Source: Pseudomonadota bacterium (GTDB taxonomy: Bacteria > Pseudomonadota > Gammaproteobacteria > Burkholderiales > Casimicrobiaceae). From it: a DNA stretch of 46,842 bases. A program made the position numbers and the translations under genes. The notes under the pieces are model-generated. The model saw only the letters and a list, made by a program, of their open reading frames with translations. It made no database searches and was not told the DNA's origin. Of this stretch, positions 43,470 through 46,842 are shown in pieces (position 1 is the first letter of the stretch; each line of letters starts with the position of its first letter). The stretch lies in contig JAFEDD010000022.1 in the NCBI GenBank assembly GCA_018241765.1, forward strand, positions 1 through 46,842. The letters are read 5' to 3'.

Positions 43470-43515
43470 GCCCGAGTGGTGAAACAGGTAGACACAGCGG
43501 ACTTAAAATCTGTTT
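43470..43515 (+). pseudogene. Truncated tRNA-Leu(UAA), 5' half only
   Basis: The segment reads as the 5' half of a tRNA-Leu gene: acceptor GCCCGAG, a D-arm with GTGAAACAGGTAGACAC, and an anticodon stem-loop with CTTAAAA (UAA). The 3' side of the anticodon stem (TCTGTT) still pairs through G-U wobbles, but no variable arm, T-arm or acceptor 3' strand follows. A TAGAAT -10-like box lies at 43452-43457. The D-arm and anticodon stem differ from the downstream intact gene, so it is not a recent exact copy. It probably records a past integration or deletion event. Confidence 0.75.
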
Positions 43516-43671
43516 TGTCAAGTCTTCTCTGCTTGCGCCAACGAGTCACAAGGTCAATAGTGACAACGGTTTGCGAGCATTCAAGATGCAGCTTCATAGC
43601 TTGGCTTGGCGGTTAGGGGCCAACTAGGCGCCAGTAGATGGAAGTAGGTGTTCCTGCGCATTGCGCACTAC

Positions 43672-43983
43672 GCCCGAGTGGTGAAATCGGTAGACACAAG
43701 GGACTTGAACAATTTGAGCCTTCGGGGGGAAACGCCTGAAGTGAAGCCCGTCAAAATCGGCGAAAGCCCTGGATGCTTCGGCATCCGAGCCAACGCCGAG
43801 CCAAGCCCAAGCTACAGTTTGGGAAGGTGTAGAGAGCAGACGGCGGGCACCTACGGCCGCAAGGCTATGGTGAAGGCGTGCTCCAGACCACGAACAGCGC
43901 GTGTGCGCTGGCGGCGAAAGTCGAAGTGGTAAGAAAATCCCTCGCCGAAAGGCGTGCCGGTTCGATTCCGGCCTCGGGCACCA
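43672..43983 (+). tRNA. tRNA-Leu(UAA) interrupted by a group I intron
   Basis: The 5' exon (43672-43706) has acceptor GCCCGAG, the D-arm and the anticodon stem up to CTT. The 3' exon (43934-43983) starts AAAATCCCT and continues with a long variable arm (CGCC GAAA GGCG), T-arm GCCGG TTCGATT CCGGC, acceptor CTCGGGC, discriminator A and an encoded CCA. Joining the exons gives an 85-nt class II tRNA with a 7-nt loop CTTAAAA, anticodon UAA. The insertion lies between U34 and A35, the site used by the cyanobacterial and plastid tRNA-Leu(UAA) intron. A terminator follows immediately. Confidence 0.93.
43707..43933 (+). ncRNA. Group I intron (tRNA type, probably subgroup IC3)
   Basis: The 227-nt intron follows a 5' exon ending in U and itself ends in G, as group I introns require. 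P1 pairs exon CUU with intron GAG, giving the U-G splice-site pair. Visible helices are P2 (CUUCGGG/CCUGAAG), P4 (CGGCG/CGCCG), P5 (GGAUGC-UUCG-GCAUCC), P6 (CCCAA/UUGGG), P8 (CACC..GGCC-GCAA-GGCU..GGUG) and P9 (CAGCGC-GUGU-GCGCUG). Core segments CGCCGAGCCAAGC and GUGUAGAGAGCAGACGG match the Q and R regions of the cyanobacterial tRNA-Leu intron. There is no homing endonuclease gene. Self-splicing is expected but not shown. Confidence 0.9.
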
Positions 43984-43990
43984 ATCCAGA

Positions 43991-44020
43991 GCCGCCCCCG
44001 TTTACGCAGGGGCGGCTTTT
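43991..44020 (+). terminator. Rho-independent terminator after tRNA-Leu
   Basis: GCCGCCCC (43991-43998) pairs perfectly with GGGGCGGC (44009-44016) around a 10-nt loop, followed by TTTT. It starts seven bases after the CCA of the tRNA and should end its transcript. The DUF2274 reading frame on the other strand ends inside the loop, so the hairpin lies at the element junction. Confidence 0.82.
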
Positions 44021-44244
44021 CCGTTCTTGGGTTGTGTGCGCTTGAATCCCCGATCGCCAGCCATGAAGGCTTCCAACATGTGCGGAATCAGCGTCAAGGC
44101 ATCTACTGCCTCGCCGTATGCCTGCGCGTGCAGCGCGGCGTAGCGGTCGAGGTCGGCTTTCAGGCTGGCCGGGCAGGCAAAGGTCAGCTTGACGCTTTCG
44201 GTCTTGGGCAGCGGCCCGAGCCGCAGCTTCTTGGTCGTGTTCAT
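44002..44244 (-). CDS. DUF2274 protein of the conjugative element
   Basis: This 80-residue protein has the family core KLRLGPLPKTESVKLTFACP ... LDRYAALHAQAYGEAVDA ... LIPHMLEAFMAGDRGF, characteristic of the small gene next to trbI in trb-type integrative elements. Its function is unknown; a ribbon-helix-helix-like or accessory role is sometimes guessed. The start overlaps the trbI stop by four bases (ATGA). Its last residues are encoded in the terminator hairpin beside the tRNA, so its C-terminus may be specific to this integration. Confidence 0.82.
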   Translation of the reverse strand: MNTTKKLRLGPLPKTESVKLTFACPASLKADLDRYAALHAQAYGEAVDALTLIPHMLEAFMAGDRGFKRTQPKNGKAAPA

Positions 44245-45506
44245 CGCATCGCCCCCCTGTTGAAGAACAGCGGTTGGTACGGCCGCAACACCAAGTCACG
44301 GTTGACGATGATCCGCACCGACAACCCCGGCCGTTCGGTCAGCGTCGGTTGGATGTTCATGTTGCGCCGGGTCATCTCCTGGCCCACCTGATTGATGCTG
44401 TCCTGCGCGCTGTCGCGCCCGGCGATCACGATGCGGTTGCCATCCTGCCGGTTCTCCGGCGCGGCCAGCTCGGCGCCCACGCCCAGCAGGGTCGTCAGCG
44501 CCGCACCCGCGAAGACGCGATCCCAATGCCAATCGACACCATCCTCCAGCCCGGCATAGCCGGCCGGATCGGTGCCCGCGAGGTTGTCGAGCTTCAGCGA
44601 TGACGTGTCCGGCAGGATGACGCGGTTCCACACCACCTGCACGCGGCTCTGCCCATAGCTCACCTGGCTGTTGTACTTGCCCAGGATGCGCGATCCCTGC
44701 GGGATCAGCAGGAACTTGCCCGTGGCCGTGTCATAGACCGGTTCCGTCACTGTGGCGATCACGTCGCCCGGCAAGTCCGACTTGATGCCCGTCACCAGTG
44801 CCCCGGCGATCACCGTTCCGGCCATGACCTGGTACGGCGAGGACGGCATTTGCAGATTGCCGGAATTACGGGTTTCCGTAGAACCGCCTTTCAGGAACGC
44901 CTCTTTCTGGTCTTGCCGGTTCTGCACGGCGGTCGGGTCGGCGGGCTGGGCCGCCGTCGAGGCCGGGCCAGCGGCCAGCGGGTCGAAGCCCGCCAAGCCT
45001 GATGCCGAGCCAGTCGCAGCGACTTGCGCCGTGCCTGGCGCTGCGCCCTTGCCGGGAGTGCCCGAGCGGAAGAACACCGAAGAAGCTGCGGCTGCTTCGG
45101 CCTCCTTGCGCTGTGCATCCTCCGGGTCGTGGCCCGGTGGCGCATACGTCGGCGCCATCGGTTGCTGCGACTTCACGATGGCTGGGCCAAGGTCGCCCGG
45201 CAGCGGCGGCCCCAGCTCCGGCACCTTCGGCAGCTTGGAGTAATCCGACGGCAGGCCGTCCAGCCCTTCGGACTTCGACACGCGATCCACGTTGTACAGC
45301 TCGGTCTGCTCGCCCGCACCGCGTCGATGCGGCTGCAACGACCAGATCGTGGCCCCGAGCACGGCGACCGACAGGCCGCCGGTGAGCATGGCCAAGGTGC
45401 GCCGGTTCAGGCGCGTGACCGGGCGCGGCTGGGCGCGCAGCGCCACCGCCTCGGGCGCGACCTTGCCCGTTTGCGGCGCAAGGTCAGGGGAATCGTCCTG
45501 GCTCAT
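44241..45506 (-). CDS. trbI: Conjugal transfer protein TrbI (VirB10 family)
   Basis: TrbI is the VirB10-like protein that spans the inner membrane and reaches the outer-membrane pore of the conjugative type IV secretion system. The 421-residue product has a short cytoplasmic start and one membrane helix at about residues 37-56 (LAMLTGGLSVAVLGATIWSL). A long Pro/Ala-rich periplasmic linker and the C-terminal VirB10 domain (MAGTVIAGALVTGIKSDLPG, LLIPQGSRILGKYNSQVSYG) follow. It lies two bases after trbG on the same strand. Confidence 0.95.
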   Translation of the reverse strand: MSQDDSPDLAPQTGKVAPEAVALRAQPRPVTRLNRRTLAMLTGGLSVAVLGATIWSLQPHRRGAGEQTELYNVDRVSKSEGLDGLPSDYSKLPKVPELGPPLPGDLGPAIVKSQQPMAPTYAPPGHDPEDAQRKEAEAAAASSVFFRSGTPGKGAAPGTAQVAATGSASGLAGFDPLAAGPASTAAQPADPTAVQNRQDQKEAFLKGGSTETRNSGNLQMPSSPYQVMAGTVIAGALVTGIKSDLPGDVIATVTEPVYDTATGKFLLIPQGSRILGKYNSQVSYGQSRVQVVWNRVILPDTSSLKLDNLAGTDPAGYAGLEDGVDWHWDRVFAGAALTTLLGVGAELAAPENRQDGNRIVIAGRDSAQDSINQVGQEMTRRNMNIQPTLTERPGLSVRIIVNRDLVLRPYQPLFFNRGAMR

Positions 45507-45508
45507 GG

Positions 45509-46513
45509 TCAGTTCCTCCGCGTGCCACCCGAGACACCGTCTGTGCGCTCAATGCGCACCACGTCGCCCTTGTCGCCGCCCAGGCGCAATTCGGCCGCGC
45601 CGAACAGCCGATCCACGATGTAGTACGGCGAGCGGAAACGGTAGTTCACCAGTTGTCCGTCACCCTGCGCGCCGATGACAAACAGCGGCGGCAGCTCGCC
45701 TTGTGCGATGCCGGCGGGGAACTGGATGTAGACCTTCTCGCCATCGTCGAAGGCGCGCAGCGGCTTCCACGGCGGATTGCTGCCGCTGACCGCGTAGCGG
45801 AAACGGATCTTCTCCAGCGACAGGCCGCTATCGACCGGCGCGGCGGCGCTGGCCGCCTGCGACTGGCGCTGCAGGGCCAGCATCTTGTCCTTCGGGTACT
45901 CCCAGGACACCGATGCCATCCATGTCTTCTCGGTCGAAGTCAGTTCCAGCAGGTACGTCCTGCGGCTGGTGGTGATGACCAGATTGGTCTTCAGGCCCGA
46001 GCGGATCGGCTTGACCATCACGTTGACGCGCAGCGCATCGCCGCTGCCGCTCGATGTATCACCCACGATCCAGCGCACGGTATCGCCCGCCGCCACCGTC
46101 ACCAGTTCCTCGCCTGGCTGGAGCGCGATCACGGTCACGCGGCCCACGGCCGCGTAGACCTGGTACAGCGCGCCATCGGTGAAGGGCCAGACCTGAATCG
46201 CGTTGACATAGCCCTCGCGCGTAGGCGCAATGCGCGCTTCGGCATTGGCGCGCGAAACGCGCACGGTTTCATCGGCAGGTTCTGCGGCGGGCTTGGCATC
46301 CGGCACAGGCTTCATCTGCGCCGGCATCGGCAGCACCTGCGATACGGCTACTACCTCCACGGGCACAGGCGGCTCCGGCAGCGGCTGGGCCTGCACCGGC
46401 TCATCGAGCGAAATGGTCGGCGGCGGCTTGCCCTGCGTGGCGCAGCCAGAGAACAGCACCGTCGAAGCTAACAGCGCCACCGGCAAGGCAGATTTACAGA
46501 AAAGATCATTCAT
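45509..46513 (-). CDS. trbG: Conjugal transfer protein TrbG (VirB9 family)
   Basis: TrbG is the VirB9-like component of the outer-membrane core of the transfer apparatus. The 334-residue product starts with a lipoprotein signal peptide ending in LFSGC (Cys24). A Pro-rich stretch and the VirB9 domain (VYAAVGRVTVIALQPGEELV, GDTVRWIVGDTSSGSG, TYLLELTSTEKTWMASVSW) follow, with the C-terminal FVIGAQGDGQLVNYRF. Its start overlaps the stop of trbF by four bases (ATGA). Confidence 0.94.
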   Translation of the reverse strand: MNDLFCKSALPVALLASTVLFSGCATQGKPPPTISLDEPVQAQPLPEPPVPVEVVAVSQVLPMPAQMKPVPDAKPAAEPADETVRVSRANAEARIAPTREGYVNAIQVWPFTDGALYQVYAAVGRVTVIALQPGEELVTVAAGDTVRWIVGDTSSGSGDALRVNVMVKPIRSGLKTNLVITTSRRTYLLELTSTEKTWMASVSWEYPKDKMLALQRQSQAASAAAPVDSGLSLEKIRFRYAVSGSNPPWKPLRAFDDGEKVYIQFPAGIAQGELPPLFVIGAQGDGQLVNYRFRSPYYIVDRLFGAAELRLGGDKGDVVRIERTDGVSGGTRRN

Positions 46514-46842
46514 GGTTTTGCTCCTTCATTCGCTTCCAGTTCGCGGCTCCACGACAGGCCGTTGACGTAGATGCCCAGAGGGTTCTTGCGCAGGCGCTGC
46601 TCGGTGCGCGGGGCTTGCAGCACCGTGGAAATCACTGCGTTCCAGCGTTCAGTGCGATCCAGCACGCCATTGACGAAGCGCGTCTCCGTCCAGCGCACGT
46701 TGAAAGACGTGTCGCTGGCGCGGGTTACGCTGGTGATCTGCACCGTCACCGACTCCTTGCCGATGCGCGCGAACGGATCGGTCACGCGGGCGTACTCGTT
46801 GAGCACCACGGCGCCCTTGTCGGTCGTGTAGTCGTAGGCATC
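46510..46842 (-). CDS. trbF: Conjugal transfer protein TrbF (VirB8 family), 5' partial
   Basis: TrbF is the VirB8-like inner-membrane assembly factor of the mating-pair apparatus. Only the C-terminal 110 residues are in the window. The visible part has VLNEYARVTDPFARIGKESV, WTETRFVNGVLDRTERWNAV and NPLGIYVNGLSWSREL, a family C-terminus. The frame is open to the window end, so the GTG at 46809 is not the true start. It precedes trbG in the standard trbF-trbG-trbI order. Confidence 0.9.
   Translation of the reverse strand, partial: DAYDYTTDKGAVVLNEYARVTDPFARIGKESVTVQITSVTRASDTSFNVRWTETRFVNGVLDRTERWNAVISTVLQAPRTEQRLRKNPLGIYVNGLSWSRELEANEGAKP

Follow-up and report, generated by a model that had tools for sequence, protein, structure and literature searches.

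A group I intron in a replacement tRNA-Leu(UAA) gene borne by an integrative and conjugative element may hide the recombination core from the element's own integrase

Islander genomic islands are integrated by a tyrosine integrase, use a tRNA gene as attB, and restore the split gene through a tRNA fragment carried in attP; the anticodon loop is a known crossover subsite (PMC4383910, in the part of the text available). The integrative and conjugative elements (ICEs) ICEKKS102Tn4677 and ICEbphKF708 share a 9-bp attachment (att) site, GATTTTAAG (PMC6563109, PMC9960961, and PMC11448139, partial texts). ICEKKS102Tn4677 is the only Tn4371-family ICE with confirmed transfer according to the partial text of PMC11448139, and it mainly targets a tRNA-Leu gene but uses other sites in some hosts (partial text of PMC9960961). 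Archaeal tRNA introns have been discussed as shields against integrases (Randau and Soell, cited in the accessible part of PMC3293823). Here, we describe one end of an ICE in a 46,842-nt stretch of DNA, referred to as the window, from a Casimicrobiaceae genome (contig JAFEDD010000022.1, hereafter C14, of assembly GCA_018241765.1). The ICE breaks the intronless tRNA-Leu(UAA) gene of its host in the anticodon loop and brings a complete second tRNA-Leu(UAA) gene that contains a group I intron. The reading we favor, at a probability of roughly 0.7, is that the ICE carries a whole replacement tRNA whose intron, or in some relatives a U at position 32, hides the recombination core from the ICE's own integrase. 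Going by the available part of PMC4383910, the window ICE is like the Islander islands in its tyrosine integrase and tRNA attB, but differs in that a complete second tRNA replaces the split gene. The archaeal idea, as given in the accessible part of PMC3293823, is similar in that an intron in the attachment site prevents recombination; it is a host-side idea, whereas here a mobile element would shield its own tRNA with a ribozyme.

Run in intron mode, ARAGORN identifies positions 43672-43983 as a tRNA-Leu(taa) with a 227-nt intron; without intron mode, it calls zero tRNAs in the window. The 5′ exon (43672-43706, plus strand) ends with U34, the intron (43707-43933, plus strand) lies between U34 and A35 and has G as its last base, and the 3′ exon (43934-43983, plus strand) includes an encoded CCA. 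The splice-site bases are those expected of a group I intron, with ACTT (U) at the end of the 5′ exon and TAAG (G) at the end of the intron. The group I model RF00028 gave a full-length match to 43697-43886 with an E-value of 2e-7 and 35.8 bits. This score is under the curated cut-off (gathering score) of 50 bits, so a default Rfam scan is silent on the intron. The match is the sole one in its own genome at E ≤ 0.001 among three candidates scored. An alignment of 26 related introns contains 61 consensus pairs, 32 of them with two-sided changes. The P7 strands were checked by pattern in 51 introns and read GAGCA/TGCTC in 33, GACTA/TAGTC in 9, GACTG/CAGTC in 2, GACTT/AAGTC in 2, and the G-U variant GAGTA/TGCTC in 1; one strand was missed by the pattern in 4 introns. 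These data confirm that 43672-43983 is a complete class II tRNA-Leu(UAA) gene with a group I intron that is predicted to splice. An earlier note on this DNA, written from the letters alone, had proposed this 227-nt intron at U34/A35 with a final G and exons that join into tRNA-Leu(UAA). The exact coordinates, ARAGORN, and covariation bear it out, and the model search agrees with it in match length and E-value and falls short in score.

A second tRNA feature, absent from the earlier note, lies 161 bp upstream. Positions 43470-43510 (plus strand, attL side) hold part of the host's native tRNA-Leu(UAA), which has no intron: its 5′ half, severed in the anticodon loop. Its tRNA character stops right after the 9-bp recombination core CTTAAAATC (43502-43510, plus strand; the sole copy in the window), and a 161-bp spacer of ICE DNA (43511-43671, plus strand), starting TGTTTTGTCAAGTC, runs from the core to the replacement tRNA. 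The 3′ counterpart of this half turned up in a BLAST search against eight stretches; it lies at about 59890-59951 on the minus strand of C35, another contig of this genome. The C14 and C35 halves overlap in CTTAAAATC, and ARAGORN calls the joined gene tRNA-Leu(taa). The joined gene has a long variable arm and is of the same type as the genes in six same-genus genomes (G002, G006, G007, G009, G011, and G015), whereas the exons of the intron tRNA are of a different type. These data identify the broken gene as the chromosome's own. A fragment-restored tRNA was not seen at 43470-43510, where the 5′ half continues into the spacer. ARAGORN called zero tRNAs at the broken half, the Rfam tRNA model across 43470-43539 scored 20.7 bits against a threshold of 29 (E 0.13), and a scan of the 161-bp spacer did not find a sigma-70-like promoter. 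A chance tRNA-like half at 43470 was considered and rejected, since its 15-mer has two exact matches against 0.06 expected (at ≤2 mismatches) and a matching 3′ half exists elsewhere. The broken half and spacer are 88.7% identical in L081.

A 400-aa tyrosine integrase (PF00589, E 5e-18) adjoins the 3′ half on C35. Each ICE end has one CTTAAAATC core, at window position 43502 and at L062 position 7944 (minus strand), with the two ends on two contigs. An integrase at one end and trb genes at the other is the Tn4371-family ICE layout. The window core is the reverse complement of the published att GATTTTAAG, and, judged from its sequence, the breaker of the host gene is an ICE of the ICEKKS102Tn4677/ICEbphKF708 type. 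It shares with these ICEs the 9-bp att, trb-type transfer genes, a tyrosine integrase, and a tRNA-Leu target, as far as their partial texts describe them, but differs in the position of the site, which the available text of PMC9960961 places at the tRNA-Leu 3′ end and which is the anticodon loop here. The word 'intron' is absent from the accessible portions of PMC11448139 and PMC9960961, and these ICE texts name neither an intron nor a replacement tRNA. No paper tying a group I intron to this ICE family was found in the literature searched, which was thin in subscription journals and included the available parts of PMC3293823, PMC4383910, PMC6563109, PMC9960961, PMC3984707, and PMC11448139.

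The arrangement recurs in other bacteria. Intron matches were found in at least 38 of 399 genomes of the order, in several kinds of tRNA; two candidates were scored per genome, which makes the count a lower bound. The broken half, spacer, intron tRNA, DUF2274 gene, and TrbI gene occur together in G376, G378, and G224. In G376 and G378, the integrase is 90-92% identical, lies on the same contig, and is followed on its outer side by the matching native 3′ half; in G224, the gene is named differently by ARAGORN, and the integrase was not found. Genomes from two further families have this ICE layout too, and their introns are 96% and 93% identical to the window intron. The earlier note had the intron splitting the tRNA of a betaproteobacterial chromosome, whereas the chromosome's own tRNA-Leu(UAA) is intronless and is broken by the ICE. 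An intron-bearing gene native to the chromosome, with the ICE inserted beside its 3′ end, would explain why the ICE genes begin right after the tRNA, as expected for insertion at a tRNA 3′ end. That alternative has next to no probability: a broken intronless tRNA-Leu of the genus type lies upstream with its other half beside the integrase, the intron is 96% and 93% identical in two other families, the exons are nearly identical across unrelated hosts, and the layout shared with G376, G378, and the recurrent loci read refutes it.

The wider sample came from an integrase scan of the genomes of 84,980 species, in which 80 of 277 relatives were kept and their att sites classed by script and by eye. 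Among these 80, 39 loci (L153-L191) have integrases at least 80% identical to that of the window ICE; G447 and G458 represent one strain assembled twice, and G378 and G376 recur as G438 and G448. One locus is cut at a contig end, and the outer side of the integrase enters a tRNA-Leu(UAA) 3′ half in 36 of the other 38. The remaining two, in Sphingobium phenoxybenzoativorans and Pseudomonas Q2-TVG4-2, enter other DNA. Hosts with names belong to the beta-, gamma-, and alphaproteobacteria, apart from one bin labelled Bifidobacterium. A complete intron tRNA is present in 31 of the 39 genomes at 87-95% identity, and its exons are nearly the same across the window and these 31 genomes. The other eight genomes have no RF00028 match; they comprise six metagenome bins, one secondary site, and one locus cut at a contig end. 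An intronless replacement linked to the ICE was not seen in these eight, whose far ends were not recovered. Cupriavidus basilensis KF708 is among the 31, and its core-to-core distance of 61.8 kb equals the published 61.8 kb (partial text of PMC9960961). Both cores are also on one contig in Castellaniella defragrans (44.8 kb), Variovorax sp. Root473 (51.6 kb), and Pseudomonas jinjuensis (66.0 kb).

Thirty of these loci were read at the trb end. A pattern finds the core and a 155-162-bp spacer in 27, of which 26 have the broken tRNA half and one (Sphingobium) is at a non-tRNA site. The layout was seen by eye in L255 (which contains N's), in L261 and L262 (core CTTAAAACC), and likewise in a 31st locus, L305. 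When the left and right halves from the same genome were joined, the acceptor stem was paired 7/7 in 27 of 28 cases, all but the non-tRNA site; in the control, with halves joined across genomes, 7/7 pairing occurred in 230 of 756. The host genes used have very unlike acceptor stems (GCCCGGA, GCGGCCG, GCGTCCA, and GGCCGCT). DUF2274 was undetected in 8 of the 30 loci, which ties the movement of the tRNA to the att and integrase and not to DUF2274. These data strongly support the suggestion in the earlier note of lateral movement in which the ICE may help carry the intron, as the gene is part of the ICE att module. The note had also described proteobacterial group I tRNA introns as sporadic; their distribution is at least partly an ICE story, with the same intron tRNA in 31 of 39 genomes that have a close integrase.

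Cyanobacterial and plastid tRNA-Leu(UAA) introns and that of Pseudomonas isolate D0715 have the same insertion point, U34/A35, as the window intron. The D0715 intron, attributed to Vepritskiy et al. 2002, is reportedly 231 nt long with CCUACG...UAUGG in P8, and to our knowledge it has not been reported as part of an ICE. The ICE introns of Pseudomonas sp. 2FG (L256) and P. guguanensis (L260) are 231 nt with CCUACG...UAUGG, in line with the reported features of D0715.

The proposed mechanism is as follows. The ICE integrase would recombine at CTTAAAATC in the anticodon loop of the host tRNA-Leu(UAA), leaving the gene split and unrestored, and the ICE would supply a complete replacement tRNA-Leu(UAA) in place of a restoring fragment. 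A whole replacement needs no match to the host stems, so tRNA-Leu genes that differ widely could serve the ICE. If it were whole but intronless, the replacement tRNA-Leu would contain the core and would be a target of the integrase that the ICE encodes. The intron interrupts the core (CTT/AAAATC), and therefore the DNA lacks the site while the spliced RNA would be a normal tRNA. The intact core is absent from the DNA of 41 of 41 replacement genes (35 with an intron and 6 with U32) and is present in the predicted spliced RNAs of 35 of 35 intron genes (L233-L262, L305, the window, L302, L303, and L131; the G224 gene was not counted). We infer that the intron splices and that it is kept because it hides the site.

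ICEs with sister-group integrases split tRNA-Leu(CAA) in Variovorax Root473 (G376:C1) and Polaromonas (G462), and past the broken CAA half each module has a tRNA-Leu(CAA) with an intron. In both, the replacement has the same identity as the gene that was broken, and the intron is retained. The tRNA-Leu(CAA) modules of alphaproteobacteria have an intronless replacement with C32 changed to U in six of six. These six come from five genomes with CAA-type integrases plus one module in G468; the integrase is not contig-linked. Their spacers are 143-157 bp, and the replacement loop reads GATTCAAAATC versus GACTCAAAA in the broken native gene; one module, L312, is truncated past the loop, where its contig stops. 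A UAA-type module is present in G468 as well, and its intron belongs to the alphaproteobacterial lineage. An RF00028 match in G463 was rejected as an ICE end because it is on another contig and in a UAA rather than a CAA tRNA.

The need for splicing was addressed with a tRNA-Leu(UAA) 5′-half pattern, which has matches in 28 of 41 genomes and misses 13. The broken half at the ICE is among the matches in 25 of the 28 and is the sole match in 23 of these 25. The two exceptions are G441, where the second match is not a tRNA by ARAGORN, and the bin that contains the window (contig C42). The remaining three genomes are G452, Sphingobium, and Pseudomonas Q2-TVG4-2. The ICE is elsewhere in the last two, and their native tRNA-Leu(UAA) is intact. 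An intact tRNA-Leu(UAA) in G452 was discounted as a spare host copy: it is truncated by a contig end, and its type differs from that of the ICE half. The pattern counts support, and do not prove, that the reading of UUA codons depends on splicing of the intron tRNA. We infer a functional replacement that is in many cases the sole tRNA-Leu(UAA). Group I splicing requires a guanosine cofactor, and this need raises the idea that the intron is a control element, linking the supply of tRNA or the excision of the ICE to the state of the cell through its splicing or its dependence on GTP. The alphaproteobacterial CAA modules do without the intron, and we regard a control function as highly improbable.

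Several observations weigh against the camouflage reading. The UAA modules share ancestry, the 31 are not independent events (two are one strain), and the independent cases number about three: the betaproteobacterial intron, the alphaproteobacterial UAA intron, and the alphaproteobacterial CAA U32. In the integrase tree, tRNA-Leu users (48 rows) and TTTTTCAT users (35 rows) fall on separate sides (100/100 for both). Two results count in favor of the reading, a control and the two intron lineages, each with a caveat. Sister-clade integrases at the TTTTTCAT site served as the control, and any RF00028 match was found in 4 of their 33 genomes, a rate that is not strictly comparable with that of the ICE set, which was found by BLAST. 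One of the four matches is a tRNA-Gln (ARAGORN) and three are tRNA-Leu(UAA) introns, with linkage to an ICE neither shown nor excluded. The intron tree groups the alphaproteobacterial UAA ICE intron with alphaproteobacterial introns (99/97) and the other ICE introns with betaproteobacterial introns (100/98), with a program warning of long-branch joins involving the alphaproteobacterial rows. Among the further points against the reading, the tRNA-Leu(UAA) introns of G044, G057, and G043 have no ICE gene of the kind described here in the stretch read; introns in G253 and G341, where the stretch read is likewise free of ICE genes, fall within the ICE introns of the tree and could be leftovers. 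The tRNA-Leu(CAA) introns L131, L303, L304, L092, and L095 have C, not U, before the 5′ splice site, which is unusual. A CAA-type integrase in G295 adjoins a decayed half, and the native tRNA-Leu(CAA) is intact on another contig. The core reads CTTGAAATC in Pseudomonas Q2-TVG4-2 and CTTAAAACC at the ends of L261, L262, and L305; the integrase accepts some altered cores, and it is less certain on that account that U32 by itself stops it. G032, from the family of the window genome, has an ICE remnant (L063 4788-6175) with an intronless tRNA-Leu(UAA), an ICE-like 3′ flank, a RelE gene at 88.5%, and an integrase fragment, so a tRNA-restoring form may exist or have existed. Finally, the window's own bin holds an intact tRNA-Leu(UAA) on the 4.2-kb contig C42. 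It has 78 of 87 aligned positions in common with a Sphingobium tRNA versus 69 of 95 with a same-genus tRNA, bin contamination is 3.96%, and GC content is not decisive (0.662 versus 0.653). We took this Sphingobium-like gene as probable contamination rather than a second host copy.

The principal alternative is a passenger intron, in which an ancestral ICE captured a tRNA-Leu gene that already had a group I intron, which has no role and persists because introns are rarely lost. The chromosomal tRNA-Leu(UAA) introns of the order with no such ICE gene nearby, some of them nested among ICE introns, and the single clade formed by the UAA modules fit this explanation. It has to contend with two separate intron lineages on ICEs, an intron in the CAA replacement tRNA as well, and the U32 change in the intronless replacements, all three of which point to selection against an intact core, and with the lack of that core from every replacement gene counted. 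We consider a mere passenger rather unlikely and prefer an intron that hides the core.

The window also contains the trb end of the ICE, all on the minus strand. The last gene at this end encodes a DUF2274 protein (44002-44244; PF10038, E 8e-25), and TrbI (44241-45506; PF03743, E 6e-60), a CagX/VirB9-like TrbG (45509-46513; PF03524, E 7e-68), and a VirB8-like TrbF that continues past the window edge (46510-46842; PF04335, E 7e-29) follow. The names TrbG and TrbF are presumed from the usual trb gene order. TrbL is farther along the ICE, outside the window. A terminator-like hairpin with a T-rich tail lies 3′ of the tRNA (43998-44015, plus strand); one was found where shuffled sequences average 1.0, so this is a weak candidate. 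Cargo at the integrase end (L062 9459-12438, C35) comprises a RelE-family protein, a helix-turn-helix protein, a HerA-like helicase, and a SIR2-like protein; the last two presumably resemble a defence pair. The host flank past the attR side has a fragment of a Tae4-like type VI secretion system (T6SS) amidase effector (L062 5943-6209) that scores just over the cut-off. Another related integrase (64%) is encoded in the source genome, at a site of the TTTTTCAT type (C66 2165-3346; L133).

Related intron tRNAs are also found on plasmids. Two Cupriavidus megaplasmids (L110 and L111) have the spacer, the 5′ exon, and a truncated intron, with the 3′ exon not seen, a relic of the same att module. The conjugative plasmid of Bradyrhizobium sp. 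ISRA443 (L113) has an intron tRNA-Leu(UAA) close to trbI, and a broken half was not seen by eye in the approximately 390 bp upstream. The alphaproteobacterial ICE intron tRNA-Leu(UAA) (L302 5729-6020) matches 1293 of 72,556 plasmid records, 1261 of them over at least 80% and mostly at 90-95% identity; the genera include Escherichia (493), Klebsiella (365), Salmonella (117), and Acinetobacter (79). The intron tRNA of Escherichia coli plasmid CP042640 (L112) lies between an IS6-family transposase gene and aac(3)-IId. Phages were rejected as carriers, with partial matches in only three records, two of which are one phage.

On balance, we lean toward a broader picture in which the intron is DNA camouflage for the spare copy of an essential tRNA gene, the alphaproteobacterial relatives have a one-base solution to the same problem, and the scattered tRNA-Leu introns of proteobacteria are parts or leftovers of such elements. 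If this is true, group I introns, which are usually seen as neutral parasites, would gain a function in DNA for which they are selected. This picture would account for the use, by a single type of integrase, of tRNA-Leu genes whose stems are unrelated across alpha-, beta-, and gammaproteobacteria, and would help explain the scatter of tRNA-Leu introns in proteobacteria. The old idea of tRNA introns that block integrases would become testable in ICEKKS102Tn4677 and ICEbphKF708, where the att is known.
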